From Aurantiacibacter gangjinensis (GTDB lineage: Bacteria; Pseudomonadota; Alphaproteobacteria; Sphingomonadales; Sphingomonadaceae), in NCBI RefSeq assembly GCF_001886695.1, contig NZ_CP018097.1, forward strand, positions 496,001-560,000: DNA of 64,000 nt. The letters run 5' to 3'. The translations under genes and the position numbers were made by a program. A model generated the notes under the pieces. The model ran no database searches and had not been told where the DNA came from. It saw nothing but the letters and a program-made list of their open reading frames with translations. Below are positions 3,171 to 10,736 of this stretch, in pieces. Every line of letters starts with the position of its first letter. The first letter of the stretch is position 1.

Positions 3171-3482
3171 TCAGGTGCCGGGCGAAGCGAAGAAGTCGCC
3201 GTCCTCACCGTCTTCCAGAAGGATAACGAATAGAGCCATCACGCCAGCCGCGCCCAAGACCCACAGCCAGCCCCCGCCGCAGTCATCATCGCCATCGAAC
3301 TCGTCGATATCGAGGTCGTCTCGCTCGCATGCCTCGTCATCCTCATTGTCGAAGATCCCGGCAGGAGCCGCTGCAAGACCGGCCAGCGATACGCTCGCAT
3401 CGGCAGCCCGCGTGTTCGCTTGCGCCGATAGCGGAGCCAGCGCGAGTGAAAGCGCGGCAAATGCGGCAATAGGCGTTTTCAT
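3171..3482 (-). CDS. Small secreted or anchored acidic protein with a C-terminal membrane segment
   Basis: 103 residues: a signal peptide (KTPIAAFAALSLALAPLSAQA), a strongly acidic middle (DNEDDEACERDDLDIDEFDGDDD) and one hydrophobic segment (GGGWLWVLGAAGVMALFVILL) before a short acidic tail. Two cysteines flank the acidic run. I recognise no family. The acidic run could bind divalent cations at the membrane surface, but this is inference. It lies 46 bases upstream of the polymerase/ligase gene on the same strand and is likely co-transcribed with it. Confidence 0.6.
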   Translation of the reverse strand: MKTPIAAFAALSLALAPLSAQANTRAADASVSLAGLAAAPAGIFDNEDDEACERDDLDIDEFDGDDDCGGGWLWVLGAAGVMALFVILLEDGEDGDFFASPGT

Positions 3483-3587: not shown

Positions 3588-4049
3588 TTACTCGACAAGC
3601 GGCGCGTAGCCATCGATATCCCCTCCGACAACAACATGCTCGCCGTAAGTCAGCCAGGCATGTGCACCGAATGGCTTGCCGTCCCCCCGCTGTGCGCCGA
3701 TCACCAGCTGCGTGGCTATACCTTTTGCTGCCAGCCAGCGCTGCGCGGCCAGAGCCTGCACGAGGCAATCCGCCCTCCATGGCACGCGCGCTGCAACGCG
3801 CGGCATGGCGAATGCGACGCAGGACACCATCGCATGATCATCTGCGGCCGCTTGGTCATGCTGACGATGTGCCGCGGCGATGCGCCGGTTATCCGCCAGC
3901 ATCGTCGCCGGATTTCGCTGCTCGAAATGGTGGCGCGCGCGAGCCAGTTCCAGCGTAGCCCTGGCAACGAACGGGGCGATCCTAGCCAGACCTCCAGGCG
4001 AAAGCGCATAACTGTCGCTGCTGCGCAGGTGAAAGGGATCGCTATCCAT
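3588..4049 (-). CDS. Lasso peptide B2 protein: transglutaminase-like leader peptidase
   Basis: 153 residues, the usual length for a stand-alone B2 protein. The C-terminal half has the catalytic pattern: RADCLVQALAAQRWLAAKG (nucleophile Cys), then GAHAWLTYGEHVVVGGD (His of HAW and a following Asp). B2 cleaves the leader from the lasso precursor so that the cyclase can form the ring. A longer frame starts at 4136, but the ATG at 4049 gives the family length and leaves 113 bases of divergent control region before the oxygenase gene. Unlike the rest of the cluster it is on the minus strand. Confidence 0.85.
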   Translation of the reverse strand: MDSDPFHLRSSDSYALSPGGLARIAPFVARATLELARARHHFEQRNPATMLADNRRIAAAHRQHDQAAADDHAMVSCVAFAMPRVAARVPWRADCLVQALAAQRWLAAKGIATQLVIGAQRGDGKPFGAHAWLTYGEHVVVGGDIDGYAPLVE

Positions 4050-4162
4050 TGCGATACCTGCTGGCACGGATCGCGGCGAGTGCCAAGCATGGCCACAGCC
4101 CTTGAGGATTGGGCGTGCAGGTGTCACCCTAGCCATTCGCCATCCTTACAAGCTGATCTACG
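4050..4162. promoter_or_regulatory. Divergent intergenic region of the lasso cluster
   Basis: These 113 bases separate the B2 gene (minus) from the oxygenase gene (plus) and must hold the promoters for both arms unless transcription enters from outside. I can point to TTGAGG at 4102-4107 as a possible plus-strand -35, but no good -10 follows at the right spacing, and the ATG at 4163 has no strong Shine-Dalgarno sequence. The function comes from position, not from a clear motif. Confidence 0.45.
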
Positions 4163-5029
4163 ATGCAAACCGCCAATTTGTCCGAAAAACTGAAGGATCC
4201 AGCCTATCTGGACCGGCATCTCGTTGCTGCGACAATCGTCCGACAGCTTAGCGCGCTGGACTGGTACGATTCCCTGTTCCTGCGCCACTGGGTCGCCGCG
4301 CGCCGCTATCTCGCCATCGTCCGGCCAGACCGGCTGGCGCAGTTCGAAGACGGCTTCCTCGCCTTGAAACCGGCGGCGGGATTCGAGCCGATTATCCTTC
4401 GAGACATGCTGGGAGAAGCGCGCCGGAGCGAACTCGCGCAGATCGTGAGCGCCATGCCGCCGTCGCTTTTGGAAACACATGAACTGTCGAGCTTCGGTCG
4501 GTATGTCGTGCATGACCACCCGCCTTTCAGCGCCTTGCAGCAGGAATTGCTGCCACTGGTAAGCGATCATGCCGGGATGGCGCTGGAGGCAGGATACAAT
4601 TTCCTCAGCCTCTACGGAGCCGAAGGGCGCTGCCCGCCGCACATGGACCAGCCGATATCGATGTTCACACTCGATTATTGCATCGATCAGGATGGCGAGT
4701 GGCCGATCCACTTCAGCCAGATGGTCGAGTGGCCGGAACTGGGTAAGGACCAGGCTTTGGCGATACACGAGATTGCAAGCGACGAACGCCTGCAGTTCCA
4801 GTCCGTCACTCTCCAGCCTGACGATGCCGTGTTCTTCTGCGGAAGCTCGCAATGGCATTATCGCGATCCCAAACCGGCCAGCGGCCACTGCCACTTGCTG
4901 TTCTTCCACTATTTCCCAGAAGGCTGTGCAGACCTGGTGACACCGTCTTCCTGGCCGCGCCATTTCGACTTGCCCGAGCTGGAACCGCTGCTGGACCTGC
5001 TGGCCGAAACTGGCGCTGCGAGCGACTGA
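4163..5029 (+). CDS. Putative 2-oxoglutarate/Fe(II)-dependent oxygenase, lasso-cluster tailoring enzyme
   Basis: 288 residues. The C-terminal half has a cupin/2OG-oxygenase-like pattern: an HxD motif at His160-Met-Asp162 (in RCPPHMDQPIS), a strand-rich centre, and a distal histidine in GHCHLLFFHYFP (His242 or His244). Around it are DDAVFFCGSSQWHYRDP and PISMFTLDYCID. The first ~80 residues are helical and may bind peptide. Such enzymes hydroxylate side chains, and related oxygenases in other lasso clusters hydroxylate Asp. It opens the plus-strand operon and ends 9 bases before the cyclase. The family assignment is moderate; the lasso role comes from context. Confidence 0.62.
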   Translation: MQTANLSEKLKDPAYLDRHLVAATIVRQLSALDWYDSLFLRHWVAARRYLAIVRPDRLAQFEDGFLALKPAAGFEPIILRDMLGEARRSELAQIVSAMPPSLLETHELSSFGRYVVHDHPPFSALQQELLPLVSDHAGMALEAGYNFLSLYGAEGRCPPHMDQPISMFTLDYCIDQDGEWPIHFSQMVEWPELGKDQALAIHEIASDERLQFQSVTLQPDDAVFFCGSSQWHYRDPKPASGHCHLLFFHYFPEGCADLVTPSSWPRHFDLPELEPLLDLLAETGAASD

Positions 5030-5038
5030 CTGGCGCAA

Positions 5039-6943
5039 ATGAGCGGTATCGCAGCCATCTTCCATGCCGACGGCGCGCCGGCCGATATGGCGGCTCTGCG
5101 CCGCATGGTAGACGCTATGGCCTATCGCGGGCCGGACGGTAGCGAGATTGCCGAACACGGCTGCGCCGCGCTGGCCCACTTGGCACTGCATATCGACCCG
5201 GATGACAGGACGGTAAGCCAGCCAGTCGCATCGGCAGACGGGCGGCACCTTCTGGTGCTGGATGGCTTTCTCATCAACGGGCCGGAGCTGTGCCGCGATC
5301 TTGAAGAGCTGGGCGTCCCGCTTCGCGGCCGGTCCGATGCGGAAATCGTCGTGCAGGGCCTCGCAACCCGGGGCGAGGAAGCGGTCGAGCGGCTTGAGGG
5401 AGAGTTCGCCTTCGTCTGGGTCGATCTCGCCGAGCAGCGCGTGCTGTGTGCGCGCGATCATTATGGGCTGCGCCCACTCACCTATCATTGGGATGGCCCG
5501 CGGCTGATTGTGGCATCGGACGTTGCCGGCGTTCTGGCTGCGCTCGATCACACGCCACGGCCCAATCCGGGCTATCTCGCCGAGCATATCGCCAACGCCT
5601 GGTACACCCGCGACGAAACGCCGTGGGAAGGCGTCAAGAAGCTGGAACCGGCGCACGCCCTGACACTGGCGAGAGGCGATAGCAGCCCGGCTTTGCGCGA
5701 ATACTGGCGCGTGCCCACCCAGGTCGATATCCGCTATCGCAGCGATGCCGAATATGCCGAGCATTATCGCGCCATGCTTGACGAGGTCGTCCGGCGCTGC
5801 GCCACCAGCGATCAACCGGTAGCATTCGAAGTCAGTGGCGGGCTGGACTCATCCGCAGTCTTCGGCCTCGCCCATGCAGCCGCACAGCGCGGGGAACTGG
5901 CCGCGCCCGGCATGGCGGGTTATGCGTTAAAAGGCGTGCCGGGCGATCATTCGGACGAGCGCCGATATTATCGCGCCGTGTCGGAGCATACCGGTCGCAC
6001 GATCAACGAGATAGACCTGCCTGCCACTCCGCTGCCGGCCTTCATTGCACAGGGTATAGCCGACGGGACGCTATCCTTCCCGCCGAATACGGAAATGCTC
6101 GGCGCGCTCCTGGCAAACGCACGCAGCAATGGCAGCCGCATCTGCCTGACCGGCCAAGGCGGCGATATCTGGCTCGATGGATATGAGCGCCATTATGCAG
6201 AAAGCCTGCGCATCGGCGATTATTCCGGGCTTGGCATGGGTTGGAACGCCGACCGGCAATCGCGTGGCAGTGCAGCGGCGACGCTACGCCTCTTACGCTA
6301 CGGACTTTTGCCGCTGGCTCCGGAAGCGCTCAAGAAGGGAGCGCGCCGCCTGCGGCCGATCCGCCGCGACCCGCTTTCCGACCATCTATGGTTGTCCCCA
6401 CGCCTTCGCGAAATGCTGGAGAAGCGCAAGCGCCGCTTCGAGGCGCAATTCGATAAGATCCCGTACCCTGCCGCACGCAAGATGCGAAAAATGATGAATC
6501 CTCATGTCGGCCTGTCGCTCGAAATGCTGGACCTGCTCGCCGCGCGCCTCGGCATGGAGTACCGGCATCCGATGATGTCGCGCTGCTTCGTGGAGTTTGC
6601 TGCGCGCACGCCCGAGCACCTTCGCTTGCGCGGCACCACCCGGCGCTACCTGCACCGCGAGGCGATGCGCGATGTGCTGCCGGAACTGGTTCGCATCCGA
6701 CGCAGCAAGGCCATCTTCGATACGACCTTCCTGCGTCTGGAGCGCGACATGGAGACTTTCTGTCTTGATGCCGCCGGAAACGCGCCTTTCAGCGAGTGGA
6801 TCGATCGCGCTGAAATGACCGCTTTGTTCGATCAATGTCGCGGCGCAGCATTTGACGAACAGGCCATTTGGGAGCTATGGGGAGTATTCACCGCCGCAGC
6901 GTTTTCACAAGTCGTGCGGCGCGAAAGTTCCGCTGGAGATTAA
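5039..6943 (+). CDS. Lasso peptide cyclase (C protein), asparagine-synthetase homologue
   Basis: 634 residues, the normal length. The N-terminal glutaminase-like domain begins MSGIAAIFHADG, so the Cys2 nucleophile of true asparagine synthetases is replaced by Ser; YRGPDGSE and the RDHYGLRPL region are kept. The synthetase domain has the pyrophosphatase-type ATP loop SGGLDSS at residues 266-272 and LTGQGGDIWLDGY further on. Lasso cyclases adenylate an Asp/Glu side chain in the core and let the freed N-terminal amine attack it; they need no glutamine. The gene sits 4 bases upstream of the precursor ATG. With the B1, B2 and precursor genes alongside, housekeeping AsnB is unlikely. Confidence 0.9.
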   Translation: MSGIAAIFHADGAPADMAALRRMVDAMAYRGPDGSEIAEHGCAALAHLALHIDPDDRTVSQPVASADGRHLLVLDGFLINGPELCRDLEELGVPLRGRSDAEIVVQGLATRGEEAVERLEGEFAFVWVDLAEQRVLCARDHYGLRPLTYHWDGPRLIVASDVAGVLAALDHTPRPNPGYLAEHIANAWYTRDETPWEGVKKLEPAHALTLARGDSSPALREYWRVPTQVDIRYRSDAEYAEHYRAMLDEVVRRCATSDQPVAFEVSGGLDSSAVFGLAHAAAQRGELAAPGMAGYALKGVPGDHSDERRYYRAVSEHTGRTINEIDLPATPLPAFIAQGIADGTLSFPPNTEMLGALLANARSNGSRICLTGQGGDIWLDGYERHYAESLRIGDYSGLGMGWNADRQSRGSAAATLRLLRYGLLPLAPEALKKGARRLRPIRRDPLSDHLWLSPRLREMLEKRKRRFEAQFDKIPYPAARKMRKMMNPHVGLSLEMLDLLAARLGMEYRHPMMSRCFVEFAARTPEHLRLRGTTRRYLHREAMRDVLPELVRIRRSKAIFDTTFLRLERDMETFCLDAAGNAPFSEWIDRAEMTALFDQCRGAAFDEQAIWELWGVFTAAAFSQVVRRESSAGD

Positions 6944-6947
6944 GGCC

Positions 6948-7079
6948 ATGCAGATCAAGGATCACAAGAAGAAGCCGTATAAGCGGCCTGAACTGACTGT
7001 GTTCGGTAGCGTGCGCAATCTCACGGGCGGCAGCGCTGGTCGGATGAACGGCGACGGCGGATTCATGACGATGGTCTGA
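6948..7079 (+). CDS. Lasso peptide precursor (43 residues)
   Basis: The ATG at 6948 follows the cyclase stop by 4 bases, with GGAG at 6935-6938 (9-base spacing). The leader has the lasso pattern Y11-x2-P14-x-L16-x3-G20-x5-T26: YKRPELTVFGSVRNLTG. Thr at the penultimate leader position places cleavage after Gly27, giving the core GSAGRMNGDGGFMTMV. The only acidic residue in the core is Asp9, so the predicted macrolactam is Gly1-Asp9 (9-residue ring, 7-residue tail). The core has one Arg (5), three Met (6, 13, 15), one Ser (2) and one Thr (14). A Rho-independent terminator follows at 7106. The gene is shorter than common gene-finder cut-offs. Confidence 0.88.
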   Translation: MQIKDHKKKPYKRPELTVFGSVRNLTGGSAGRMNGDGGFMTMV

Positions 7080-7105
7080 TCGCGAAGAGCCTTTGATAGT
7101 GTTTG

Positions 7106-7129
7106 AAGAGCGCCTTTTGGCGCTCTTTT
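7106..7129 (+). terminator. Rho-independent terminator after the lasso precursor
   Basis: A perfect 9-bp stem, AAGAGCGCC (7106-7114) and GGCGCTCTT (7119-7127), closes a TTTT loop; the T-rich run continues to 7129. It lies 27 bases past the precursor stop. Partial termination here would make precursor mRNA more abundant than the downstream tailoring-gene mRNA, a common arrangement in RiPP operons. Confidence 0.85.
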
Positions 7130-7198
7130 CGTCTCTATCGATGACTTTATCCGGCACAGACCTTGCGACAAGCGCCCGGTCGCAGCAGACAGCTTTTC

Positions 7199-8323
7199 AT
7201 GGCGCGTATCCTCGATGAACATTATGGTTATCTGTCGCTGAAAGGCCGGGCCGAGGCTTTCGGCCGCGCTTTTCGGGAGATTATCCGGCCGGGAGATGTC
7301 GTCGCGGATCTCGGCTGCGGGTTCGGCGTATTGGGCCTGCAAGCCATAGAGGCTGGCGCATCGCATGTATTCGGTATCGACCAGTCCGACGCTATCGAGA
7401 TCGCCCGCGAAACCATAAGGCGCGAAGGGCTGGAGGATCGCTACACCACCATAAGGGGGCGGACATTCGAGGTGGACTTGCCCGAGAAGGTCGATGTCCT
7501 GATCTGCGATCATATCGGTTTTTTCGGCGTGGACTACGGTCTGCTTGCCATGCTGGCGGATGCGCGGACGCGGTTTCTCAAACCCGGCGGACGGATCGTG
7601 CCTGCAGCAATCGAGCTTTTGCTTGCCCCCGCTCAGAATAGCGATGCGCGCGCGAAGGCCGACCGCTGGACGCGCGACCCGGTGCCAAGTGCTTTCCACT
7701 GGCTCGAGAACCATGGCGTCAATTCGACTTTCCCGCATCAGTTCGAAGCAAGCGACCTGCTTGGAGACGCGCAGCTTGTTGCCCAGATCGACCTGACGCG
7801 GGGCACGCCGGAGAGCCTCTCCTTCGCAGGTGAGCTTAGGATCGCGAGAGGTGGGATATTCCATGGCCTTTCCGCTTTTTTCAGAAGCACGCTTGCCGAA
7901 GGGGTCGCACTGACGAACGCGCCCGGGCGTGCAGAGGCCATCGCCCGGCCCCAGCTGTTCCTGCCCTGCCGCGAACCTTTCAAGGTGGCACCAGGCGAAC
8001 GTGTCGCAGTCAAGCTGACGATCGCGCACGACCCCCTATTTCTCAATTGGAGCGTCACTCCCCCGGCTGCCGATCGTGCGCAACATATGTCGACATGGCA
8101 CGCGGCCATCCTGACCGAACACGACCTGGCGGCGAAGACGGGTGAGAAGCTGTCCCGCGGTCGTCAGGCCGAAGCGCGTTTCGCGCTGCTGCGATTACTC
8201 GATGGCACGCGCAGCCGGGACGAGGTCGAAACGGCCATGCTCGATCTGCACTCGGACCTGTTTCCCTCTTCGAGGGCACTGCGCGATTTCATCCGCCGCG
8301 AACTGCCGGAAAATCTCGCGTGA
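7199..8323 (+). CDS. PRMT-like class I SAM methyltransferase of the lasso cluster
   Basis: 374 residues from the ATG at 7199; a TTG at 7163 would add 12. The N-terminus (HYGYLSLKGRAEAF) and motif I VADLGCGFGVLG (from residue 35) lead into DQSDAIEIARE and then DVLICDHIGFFGVDYGLL, the counterpart of the protein-arginine-methyltransferase double-E loop, with Cys-Asp-His where PRMTs have Ser-Glu-x. A beta-rich C-terminal half and a final helical piece (LLRLLDGTRSRDEV) follow. PRMTs methylate Arg guanidines, and the lasso core has one Arg; but the altered loop means another acceptor is possible. It is translationally coupled to the kinase gene (GTGA). Confidence 0.75.
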   Translation: MARILDEHYGYLSLKGRAEAFGRAFREIIRPGDVVADLGCGFGVLGLQAIEAGASHVFGIDQSDAIEIARETIRREGLEDRYTTIRGRTFEVDLPEKVDVLICDHIGFFGVDYGLLAMLADARTRFLKPGGRIVPAAIELLLAPAQNSDARAKADRWTRDPVPSAFHWLENHGVNSTFPHQFEASDLLGDAQLVAQIDLTRGTPESLSFAGELRIARGGIFHGLSAFFRSTLAEGVALTNAPGRAEAIARPQLFLPCREPFKVAPGERVAVKLTIAHDPLFLNWSVTPPAADRAQHMSTWHAAILTEHDLAAKTGEKLSRGRQAEARFALLRLLDGTRSRDEVETAMLDLHSDLFPSSRALRDFIRRELPENLA

Positions 8324-9168
8324 CCTATTGCATCGAGATTGCATCTCCGCGCGCGCAAATCGCCTTGCAGGGTAGACCTTACGACCGCTGGATAACGCCG
8401 TCAGGCGCGGTGATGGCCGAATTCTATAGGGAGAATGATGCGATCCGCATTCGCTTTGCCGAACAAGCGGATGTGCTGGTGCGCGCCGGTATCGCTACCT
8501 GCTACCCGGCCGAAGGGGTTTTGCAGGACGATTTGGAGACTCTGGTCGCCAATTCGCTGCGCCCACTGCTCGCCAATCATTCCGGCGACCTTAATCTGCA
8601 TGGCAGCGCCTGCGCCACACCCTTCGGTGCCCTAGCTTTCGTCGGACAATCACGCCTCGGGAAGACAACGCTCGCTGCTGCCTGCGCCCGCGCAGGGCAT
8701 CCCTTCCTTGCCGAAGACACCATCGCTCTGGAAAAGCAGGATGGCACCTACCTGGTCCTGCCACAGCGCCCGATCATGCGCCTGTTTGCCGACAGCGCGC
8801 AGCATCTGGGCCTCACAACTGATGGGGCTCGCGCCAGTGACGACAAGAGGACGGTTCACGCCAGCGCAAAGCTGCCTTTCGCCGGTGGCCCGGCGCCGCT
8901 CGCCGCCATCATGGTTCTCGGCCCCGGCGACGCGACCGCTCCGATTTTCCAGCCGCTGGACCCGCAGCCCGGACTGGCTGAAATCATGTCGCAGGCTTTC
9001 GTTCTGGATGTGGAAGACAAACCCCGGCTTCGCTCCCATTTCGGGCGGCTGACCGACTTGGCCCTCGCAGTGCCGTTTATCGCCCTTGATTACCCGCGCA
9101 ATTATGCGATTTTGCCCGAAGTGGTCGCCGCACTGGTGGATCGCATCGCGGAAATGCAAGGGTCGTGA
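8320..9168 (+). CDS. HPr-kinase-like Ser/Thr kinase of the lasso cluster
   Basis: 282 residues, start GTG overlapping the methyltransferase stop (GTGA). The C-terminal domain is of HprK type: LHGSACATPFGALAFVG leads to the P-loop GQSRLGKTT at residues 109-117, then GHPFLAEDTIAL, the usual Asp-containing strand. The HPr-binding signature of true HprK is not apparent. Homologues in lasso clusters phosphorylate the C-terminal Ser of the core. The core here ends in Val with its only Thr two residues earlier, so the substrate residue is not obvious and another role is possible. Confidence 0.75.
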   Translation: MTYCIEIASPRAQIALQGRPYDRWITPSGAVMAEFYRENDAIRIRFAEQADVLVRAGIATCYPAEGVLQDDLETLVANSLRPLLANHSGDLNLHGSACATPFGALAFVGQSRLGKTTLAAACARAGHPFLAEDTIALEKQDGTYLVLPQRPIMRLFADSAQHLGLTTDGARASDDKRTVHASAKLPFAGGPAPLAAIMVLGPGDATAPIFQPLDPQPGLAEIMSQAFVLDVEDKPRLRSHFGRLTDLALAVPFIALDYPRNYAILPEVVAALVDRIAEMQGS

Positions 9169-9170
9169 CG

Positions 9171-9449
9171 ATGGATTCCGAGACTGTGATTGCCAGGAAC
9201 GAAGATATCGTCGCGCGTGAAGTGGGCGGGGAAACCGTCCTGCTCGACCTGCAAGGCGGCACCTATTACGGCCTTAATGAAGTCGGGGGCAGGATTTGGG
9301 CCATGCTCGAAACAGACAGCCATTCTATCGCTGCGATCTGCGACGTGCTGGAAACCGAGTTCGATGCAGCCCGTGGCGAGCTCGAGGCCGATGTAAAAGC
9401 GCTGACCGCCGATCTGAAAGAAAACGGCCTCGTCAGTTTAACCGGCTAG
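9171..9449 (+). CDS. PqqD-like lasso B1 protein (RiPP recognition element)
   Basis: 92 residues, the normal B1/PqqD size. The winged-helix pattern is clear: IVAREVGGETVLLDLQGGTYYGLNEVGGRIWAMLE, then repeated helices ending in ALTADLKENGLVSL. This domain holds the precursor leader (the YxxPxL part) and delivers it to the B2 peptidase and cyclase. The ATG at 9171 has AAGGG 8 bases upstream; a GTG at 9165 that overlaps the kinase stop is too close to that site. It is the last plus-strand gene of the cluster and meets the nucleotidyltransferase gene tail to tail with a 4-base overlap. Confidence 0.9.
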   Translation: MDSETVIARNEDIVAREVGGETVLLDLQGGTYYGLNEVGGRIWAMLETDSHSIAAICDVLETEFDAARGELEADVKALTADLKENGLVSLTG

Positions 9450-10603
9450 CTTCGCCGCTTGCTGCCACTTGCCAGCCCTATCGCTTTCGATATGACGTAA
9501 CGCAGTTTGAGAAGCGCAACGGGCCAGCCAGCTGCCTGCGGGAACGCCTCACGCAGTTGGTCGTCGCTTGGCGATGCCATTGCTGCGAGAAAATGCGCTT
9601 TTCGGCGGAGACCGGATGAGGCCAGAAAATCCCGCTTGACCCTTTCGAGGCGATCCGCGCTCGCAAGGTAGCGCAATATTCGATGGTCGGATGGAGCGCT
9701 CCGGAGGGGTGCGAGTTGCTCCTCTCCCACCGGAACGCCCAGTCTGGCCGACGCATCTGCGACGGCCTTTGCGAGCAAGGGTCCAATGCCGCTCTTCCGC
9801 GCGGAGCGGTGCAACACGGCCCAGTCGGTAGGCCCCATCGCGCGCAACAACAGAGCCGTGTCATAGGTCCAGATGAGTCGGCGCGGTCCGGTCATTCTTT
9901 CACCGTCGATATAATAGCCCAGGATAGCGTGATATTCCGCGTTGAGCGCAAGCTGTATCAGACTGTCTGCATAGCCGAGGCTGCGTGCGCCCTCGTGAAG
10001 ACCCGGTAGCGCGATAGTACGCTCCAGCACCTCTTCCATCGGCAGGGCGCGCTGGAGCAGCGGGGAATCCACGACCTGCCAGTGCAAGTCGACGTCGTGA
10101 GTTAATCCGCCAGCATCCTCAATGGACCAGCTTTCCTGGAAGAGAACGCCATGCGGCGGTGCCTCGCGTTTAAAGCCACGGCTGCTCAACACTTCGCGCG
10201 CCGCCTCGACCTGCGCCTCCGGTATCAGCACATCGCTATCGCCGCGGGTGCGAGCGGCGGGGTTGGCGTATAGCGCGTAAGCAAACGCCGTGCCCTTCAT
10301 CATCACCGGCGAAATGCCGGCATCGCCAAACTGCGCAAGCAGGGGCGTAATGGCGTGTCGATGCGATGCCTCCCAGTACTCGCGTTGCATCGCTTGGCGG
10401 CGCACCGTGATTGCGACATCTTCGGGCAATTTCGCAAATGCATCGGCACTGTCGACCAGCAGATGTGCGATCCCGTGATAGGCTATGCGCCGCGAAATTG
10501 TCTGCGATGAGCATCGCGCCGGAACTGGTGTCTGGCCAACCGATCTCCCAGCGCCGCGCAGCAAGGCAGCCAGCCAGTCGTCGATGATCTGCGCTTCGCC
10601 CAT
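9446..10603 (-). CDS. Nucleotidyltransferase-fold protein associated with lasso/RiPP loci
   Basis: 385 residues from the ATG at 10603; a TTG at 10639 would add 12. The motif PVMMKGTAFAYALYANPAARTRGDSDVLI holds the DxD-type metal site of the 'uncharacterised nucleotidyltransferase' family, followed by a second acidic stretch THDVDLHWQVV. The family often accompanies PqqD, HprK-like and asparagine-synthetase-like genes, and one member has been linked to sugar addition on a phosphorylated lasso peptide. Here it could act on the kinase product; that is inference. It is convergent with the B1 gene. Confidence 0.75.
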   Translation of the reverse strand: MGEAQIIDDWLAALLRGAGRSVGQTPVPARCSSQTISRRIAYHGIAHLLVDSADAFAKLPEDVAITVRRQAMQREYWEASHRHAITPLLAQFGDAGISPVMMKGTAFAYALYANPAARTRGDSDVLIPEAQVEAAREVLSSRGFKREAPPHGVLFQESWSIEDAGGLTHDVDLHWQVVDSPLLQRALPMEEVLERTIALPGLHEGARSLGYADSLIQLALNAEYHAILGYYIDGERMTGPRRLIWTYDTALLLRAMGPTDWAVLHRSARKSGIGPLLAKAVADASARLGVPVGEEQLAPLRSAPSDHRILRYLASADRLERVKRDFLASSGLRRKAHFLAAMASPSDDQLREAFPQAAGWPVALLKLRYVISKAIGLASGSKRRS

Positions 10604-10736
10604 ACCCAGCGGTGTGCCGGTAGTGCCGCCTATTGGCAATGGTGAGCACGACCACCGCCGCGATCACGGTTGACCCGCCTTCTCGCCGCTGCAATGCAAC
10701 GGCCATGGCAGCATCGGCTTCGGGACGGGACAGGGC

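Follow-up and report, generated by a model that had tools for sequence, protein, structure and literature searches.

A split-B lasso-peptide gene cluster in Aurantiacibacter gangjinensis and related precursors that run into a Peptidase_S74 domain

The cluster and its genes

The stretch analysed here, referred to throughout as the window, comprises 64,000 nucleotides of Aurantiacibacter gangjinensis (NCBI RefSeq assembly GCF_001886695.1, 2.72 Mb; contig NZ_CP018097.1, forward-strand positions 496,001 to 560,000) and contains a split-B lasso-peptide gene cluster. In several relatives of this cluster the precursor frame runs past the core into about 75 residues of Peptidase_S74, the intramolecular-chaperone autocleavage (ICA) domain. 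Our reading, to which we give a probability of roughly 0.6, is that the window holds a lasso cluster and that the S74 domain of the relatives most likely cuts itself off, which would fix the lasso C-terminus. A frame check of the window returned the eight named genes as open frames at the coordinates below, together with a hairpin behind the precursor.

3588..4136, minus strand: B2, transglutaminase-like leader peptidase (PF13471, Transglut_core3, 77 bits against a cut-off of 26; NF033537, 64 against 33)
4163..5029, plus strand: OXY, 2-oxoglutarate (2OG)-Fe(II)-oxygenase-like protein (AlphaFold2 model, Foldseek, conserved triad)
5039..6943, plus strand: C, lasso cyclase, asparagine-synthetase-like, with Ser replacing the N-terminal Cys (PF00733, Asn_synthase, 122 bits against a cut-off of 21)
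6948..7079, plus strand: A, 43-residue precursor (open frame and conservation), leader 1-27, predicted core GSAGRMNGDGGFMTMV
7105..7128, plus strand: 10-bp hairpin, terminator-like, 3' of the precursor (z -4.0 for a 64-nt stretch)
7199..8323, plus strand: MT, methyltransferase of the protein arginine methyltransferase (PRMT) family with altered clamp, D104 and Y113 (profile E 3.5e-34 to a PRMT structure)
8320..9168, plus strand: HprK-like kinase (intact P-loop; Pfam match under cut-off)
9165..9449, plus strand: B1, PqqD-type RiPP recognition element protein (PF05402, 69 bits against a cut-off of 23)
9446..10639, minus strand: NT, nucleotidyltransferase-like protein (PF14907, 96 bits against a cut-off of 31)

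These matches bear out the first-pass annotation of this DNA, which had proposed a lasso cluster with a B2 peptidase, a cyclase, a precursor and a B1 protein. Pfam cut-offs are exceeded by B2, C and B1, with B2 the only protein in the whole genome to match PF13471. Among the NCBIfam lasso models, the B2 match lies above its cut-off, whereas the cyclase (NF033535, 249 bits against 525) and B1 (the lasso PqqD model NF033536, 57 against 80) fall under theirs. The window locus is without an ATP-binding cassette (ABC) gene; of the 45 other tabulated loci, 31 have one, most often placed between B1 and NT. A search for an exporter elsewhere in the window's genome gave, as the best matches, ABC proteins at 28-35% identity. 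A PADLOC scan returned a general methyltransferase overlap and nothing more.

Precursor and predicted ring

Lasso precursors typically carry the leader motif YxxPxLxxxGxxxxxT, and the window precursor contains this pattern, with Thr at -2. Its score on the lasso leader model NF033521 (18.1 bits) is just under the cut-off of 19. The small frame picked out in the first-pass annotation is confirmed; its leader sequence GSVRNLTGGS is found again in relatives, and the hairpin lies behind it. The predicted core has 16 residues and ends in Val, and recomputation of the unmodified lasso mass gave 1568.653, with [M+H]+ at 1569.661, in agreement with the earlier hand-calculated 1568.65 and 1569.66.

A Gly1-Asp9 ring had been proposed as unambiguous if cleavage follows Gly27, and it stands as the best prediction from the sequence for the window core; it does not extend to the relatives at large, since the ring acid of the 46 tabulated cores lies at position 8 in 40 and at position 9 in six. 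The window is among these six, and position 9 is shared by its own clade (the window, L122, L047 and L123). The first core residue is Gly in 41 of the 46. Because relatives were picked by the leader pattern, the leader is present in them by construction, and the ring acid, on which they were not selected, is the sole independent test. An acid at position 8 or 9 is present in 46 of 46 cores, so that the precursor and ring acid whose absence from close relatives the earlier proposal had named as evidence against it do recur. A threaded lasso topology is predicted for the window product.

No precursor was found at two cyclase loci, L066 and L067; at L066 we observed C, MT, HprK, B1, ABC and NT genes and found neither B2 nor precursor. 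Other departures from the single-precursor arrangement were seen at L122, within the window's own clade, which carries two tandem near-identical precursors (9476-10088), and at L126, whose two tandem precursors (1006-1360) end their leaders in Cys, not Gly, and have two Cys per core. L019 and L059 each combine a cyclase with a precursor whose core has two Cys (DQFC...DCF); the other family genes were not found in the stretch of about 20 kb around them.

Related loci

With the window cyclase as query at E 1e-60 or better, matches were obtained in 7 of the 249 genomes searched at family level and in 27 of 396 at order level, the window's own genome being counted in both. Six cyclase loci come from named contigs, and the named relatives are Aurantiacibacter, Erythrobacter and Porphyrobacter. 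Gene content was tabulated for 46 cyclase loci, window included, among them L128, a repeat of L019 that stayed in this table; L049 and L057 are copies of L014 and L017. The core table holds 46 cores, one precursor per locus, and differs from the gene-content set by three loci added and three left out. It keeps L019 and omits the second precursors of L122 and L126 as well as four orphan fused precursors described below, and one false leader match in L125 was removed. The cyclase tree has 45 rows, with L126, L067, L128 and L019 omitted. The D match of L122 was counted as present, yet it lies more than 7 kb from its cyclase, and the NT and D matches of L052, L054, L062, L229 and L231 are weak or otherwise placed.

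Precursors fused to a Peptidase_S74 domain

Fused-precursor profile searches recovered 16 fused precursors in three genera: nine in 40 genomes of the window's genus, four in 114 genomes of a second genus and three in the 129 genomes sampled from a third, larger genus. An even sample of 397 family genomes contained five, all within the 16. Among the matches read from 385 class genomes (E 1e-5) and 269 phylum genomes (E 1e-8), none came from outside the family, the full-length fused matches being those of G103 and G041 only. All four of the 16 that were scanned exceed the cut-off for PF13884 (27-34 bits against 22), with the match starting at the Ser after the core.

The catalytic Ser of the domain immediately follows a core of ordinary length; fused cores measure 15-30 residues (median 18, n=16), compared with 14-26 residues (median 16, n=34) for unfused cores. 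A Lys follows the Ser at a distance of five residues in 16 of 16 fused precursors, and both are invariant in all 16 while the neighbouring residues vary. In the fused precursor of Aurantiacibacter sp. D1-12 (contig NZ_JAPJZJ010000002.1, about 555323-555679) the pair is Ser45 and Lys50, and the lasso form of its core has a predicted [M+H]+ of 1492.659. The accessible text of PMC8326128 gives the same five-residue spacing for MyRF (S587/K592) and endoNF (S911/K916), and places the MyRF cut between P586 and S587 (also PMC3742443, in part). Ahead of the S74 domain a loose leader pattern occurs in 16 of 16 fused frames, as against 4 of 115 distinct other S74 domains of at least 20 bits in the loci read (1 of 91 in later loci). 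Those four, all in frames of 475-637 residues, are taken as chance. The fused precursors further retain a Gly-Ser core start in 13 of 16 and Asp8/9 in 16 of 16.

The S74 domain is under strong purifying selection: of the 11 pairs chosen, 10 allowed the ratio of nonsynonymous to synonymous substitution (dN/dS) of this part to be computed, and it was 0.08-0.16 in these, values that are rough because dS is mostly high. The cores of the same pairs range from 0.08 to 1.31, several being also constrained. In an AlphaFold model of a fused precursor, block means of the predicted local distance difference test (pLDDT) are 86-91 over residues 51-110, with the core below 50. In Foldseek, MyRF ICA chains rank first (probability 0.97, E 0.017) and second (probability 0.96, E 0.03). 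A profile built from all 16 matches the MyRF ICA at E 1.8e-5, a phage long tail fibre at E 0.011 and, weakly, the TbiA lasso leader at E 0.57.

The wider system can be described as a lasso family of the Erythrobacteraceae whose precursor takes two forms, a short one that ends with the core, as in the window, and a long one that continues into the phage-related S74 domain. In the proposed pathway B1 would bind the leader, B2 would cut after Gly27, and C would join Gly1 to Asp9 to give a threaded core of 16 residues in the window product. The OXY- and MT-like enzymes may then decorate the core, perhaps in its Met-rich tail, and the kinase-like and NT proteins may act at further sites. In the long form, the S74 domain would most likely fold, oligomerise and cleave on the N-terminal side of its own Ser; the core so released would have a C-terminus of the same kind as the one that the stop codon provides in the short form.

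Several observations weigh against this reading. Foldseek E values for MyRF are no better than 0.017, and most pairs compared have a dS between 0.77 and 1.71. Three of the fused cores have Thr or Asn as their first residue, and these have also lost the +3 Arg of the S74 motif. The S74 sequence ends 8 residues (15 of 16) or 12 residues past the VDY position, so the lasso S74 domains have no C-terminal coiled coil, and MyRF cutting needs trimers that are driven mainly by such a coil (PMC8326128, in its accessible text); several phage-type short S74 forms likewise end near VDY. Finally, 12 fused loci have a cyclase, and in 5 of these B2 was not found in the locus, so that leader removal there would come from elsewhere or not occur at all; L114 is among the fused loci that do have B2.

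An S74 domain that stays uncut could serve as a folded C-terminal plug or carrier, keeping the tail threaded or grouping several lassos, with a lasso-protein as the product. The strong selection on the domain and the missing coiled coil, which would trigger cutting, would fit such a role, as would the ABC exporter, which was not found in 9 of 12 fused loci compared with 6 of 34 unfused loci, as if the product were kept inside the cell; on the tree, this association offers four independent contrasts, with 1.8 in that direction and 0.1 opposite, too few for significance. We nonetheless regard an uncut domain as doubtful, since the invariance of Ser and Lys among varying neighbours and a domain start at the exact point where unfused cores end both speak against it.

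The fused genes might instead be degenerate or recruited elsewhere, with lassos made from short-form loci only. Twelve of the 16 fused precursors adjoin a cyclase and four are orphans, with no cyclase in the 20-kb stretch around them; these absences and the B2-less loci favour degeneration. The tree gives fusion and B2 absence 0.6 contrasts against 0.2, too few for significance. The four orphans (L118, L226, L227 and L228, near position 9800) occupy one conserved place, between genes that we take to be symporter-like on one side and a TauD-like dioxygenase on the other. Of the genomes that carry them, G041 and G487 have a cyclase locus at another place; G1029 and G1093 showed only a further precursor match. 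We consider degeneration improbable, given these cyclase loci elsewhere, the retained leader, Gly-Ser start and Asp8/9 of the fused frames, and the cyclase and B1 kept in 12 of 16 loci.

The genomes of the five B2-less fused loci keep a B2-like and ABC gene pair at another place. At L232, L233, L234 and L236 such a pair stands without a recognisable cyclase, L232 having B1- and NT-like genes in addition; it may be a remnant or serve in trans as a supplier. A fuller second cluster is present at L235.

Origin of the fusion

The top-scoring S74 domain found outside the lasso set forms the end of a 368-residue frame on a viral contig (L252, 46% identity). Eight phage records match, some of them annotated as virion, tail spike or injection proteins, as do 29 Rhizobium or Neorhizobium plasmids, of which the 15 listed are annotated as tail fiber domain-containing. 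A captured phage-type self-cleaving chaperone domain could act as a C-terminal follower, plugging the tail while the ring closes and afterwards excising itself to define the C-terminus; we judge the odds on this scenario to be even.

In the S74 tree, 14 of the 16 lasso domains fall under one fork (83/85), while L116 and L117 lie across a weak root beside L162, a bad fragment row that was retained with an end branch of 4.91. A single origin of the lasso S74 domains was rejected as a settled claim, as this tree has few columns and neither proves nor excludes it. On the cyclase tree the fused state needs four changes, and the window's unfused clade, of four rows, has as its sister the largest fused clade, of six, the joint group being supported at 100/99. 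The tree is compatible with either loss in the window lineage or gain in the sister clade. An S74 remnant in the window was also considered and rejected, since PF13884 matches nothing in its genome and the window itself shows no S74 pattern. The window lineage has the same locus minus S74, and the two clades form a natural pair with and without the domain.

Tailoring-type proteins

The oxygenase-, PRMT-, HprK- and nucleotidyltransferase-like identities given in the first-pass annotation held up. Its remark that four such genes in one locus are unusual did not, since MT, OXY, HprK and a strong NT match co-occur in 7 of the 45 other tabulated loci as well as in the window (10 of 45 once the weak NT matches of three further loci are counted), which makes them a recurrent set.

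No Pfam family matches OXY, and a sequence search found no relative with a solved structure. Its AlphaFold2 model (mean pLDDT 90) matches 2OG oxygenases and halogenases in Foldseek with probability 1.0, and H160, D162 and H232, an HxD...H triad, are invariant in 11 rows. The model supports a predicted 2OG-oxygenase-like fold, a double-stranded beta-helix with HxD...H.

MT scores above the cut-off on several general methyltransferase models, and its assignment to the PRMT family comes from the profile comparison, in which the match to a PRMT structure extends across the catalytic and barrel parts. Its most likely start is the ATG at 7199, in place of the TTG at 7163 chosen earlier. In PRMTs, two glutamates of the clamp motif hold the arginine; MT shares the fold match with them, but both glutamates are replaced, by Asp104 and Tyr113, which are invariant in 16 rows. 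Arg is present in 7 of 25 cores with MT compared with 18 of 21 without, leaving 18 of the 25 cores beside MT free of Arg. Arginine methylation by MT was rejected on the lost clamp and these 18 cores. The case rests on these two points because the tree contrasts for MT and Arg are even (1.3 the same way and 1.4 opposite, of 4). Together they indicate that this PRMT-family enzyme may have left arginine as its target. A Met C-terminal to the ring acid occurs in 23 of the 25 cores that have MT beside them and in 2 of the other 21 (uncorrected p 1e-8); the tree offers four well-supported independent contrasts, 2.4 the same way and 0.1 opposite, too few for significance.

The HprK-like protein scores 15.7 bits, under the Pfam cut-off of 33.3, and has an intact P-loop, GQSRLGKTT. 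Split-B clusters of the paeninodin and pseudomycoidin kind share B1, B2, C, an HprK-like kinase and a nucleotidyltransferase-type protein with the window, and PsmN is, we presume, a member of PF14907. The window differs from them in its core without a C-terminal Ser, in the added PRMT-family protein and oxygenase and in having no ABC gene in the locus, and its relatives differ in their S74-fused precursors. The kinases PadeK and PsmK use a C-terminal Ser, as described in the accessible part of PMC9266682. An ordinary cluster of this type, in which the kinase phosphorylates and NT glycosylates a C-terminal Ser, would account for the same kinds of protein (PMC9266682, in part), but it is very improbable here, as the window core ends in Val and only 2 of the 46 cores end in Ser. 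The mass shifts of +79.97 and +14.02 suggested earlier assume the usual targets and lose their footing with the absent C-terminal Ser and the two lost arginine-clamp glutamates. The canucin pathway, like the window, has a 2OG-type oxygenase gene (CanE) in a lasso cluster (PMC9266682, accessible text), a likeness at the level of gene type. CanE acts on a C-terminal Asp, whereas the window core ends in Val.

Comparison with known systems

Lasso clusters in this group of bacteria are already known, as a pan-genome study predicted them in several Erythrobacter species; the available portion of that study describes no precursor, gene content or S74 fusion for them (PMC9723273). In Erythrobacteraceae-related genomes, a tail fiber protein and a lasso B2 are tabulated as separate gene clusters (PMC10040529, in part). 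In the open-licence literature we found no report of an S74, intramolecular-chaperone or endosialidase domain tied to a lasso peptide, nor of a self-cut C-terminal domain as a maturation route for any ribosomally synthesised and post-translationally modified peptide (RiPP). A key-word search of the accessible text of a 2026 review gave nothing on such a fusion (PMC13352647).

The lasso S74 domains share with the S74/ICA domains of endoNF and MyRF a Pfam family above cut-off, the Ser-Lys spacing and the fold. They differ in being short, in having no C-terminal coiled coil and in following a RiPP core of 15-30 residues instead of a beta-helical stalk. The fusion points to a new mechanism for fixing where a lasso peptide ends. 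Retention of the tail during ring closure is hard to study, and a natural precursor whose tail is followed directly by a folded domain, one that may remove itself, would offer a ready-made means of studying it and of making lasso-protein fusions. The window itself offers a PRMT-family enzyme possibly off arginine with a predicted substrate core of 16 residues.

Neighbouring genes

The related loci mostly lie beside the same polysaccharide genes as in the window. Across the 46 cyclase loci, we tabulated a gene that we take to be O-antigen-ligase-like in 40, a presumed small secreted-looking protein in 38 and a presumed dTDP-glucose-type gene in 33. The window's copy of the small secreted-looking protein is at 3171-3482 on the minus strand, and as a rule this family adjoins the O-antigen-ligase-like gene.

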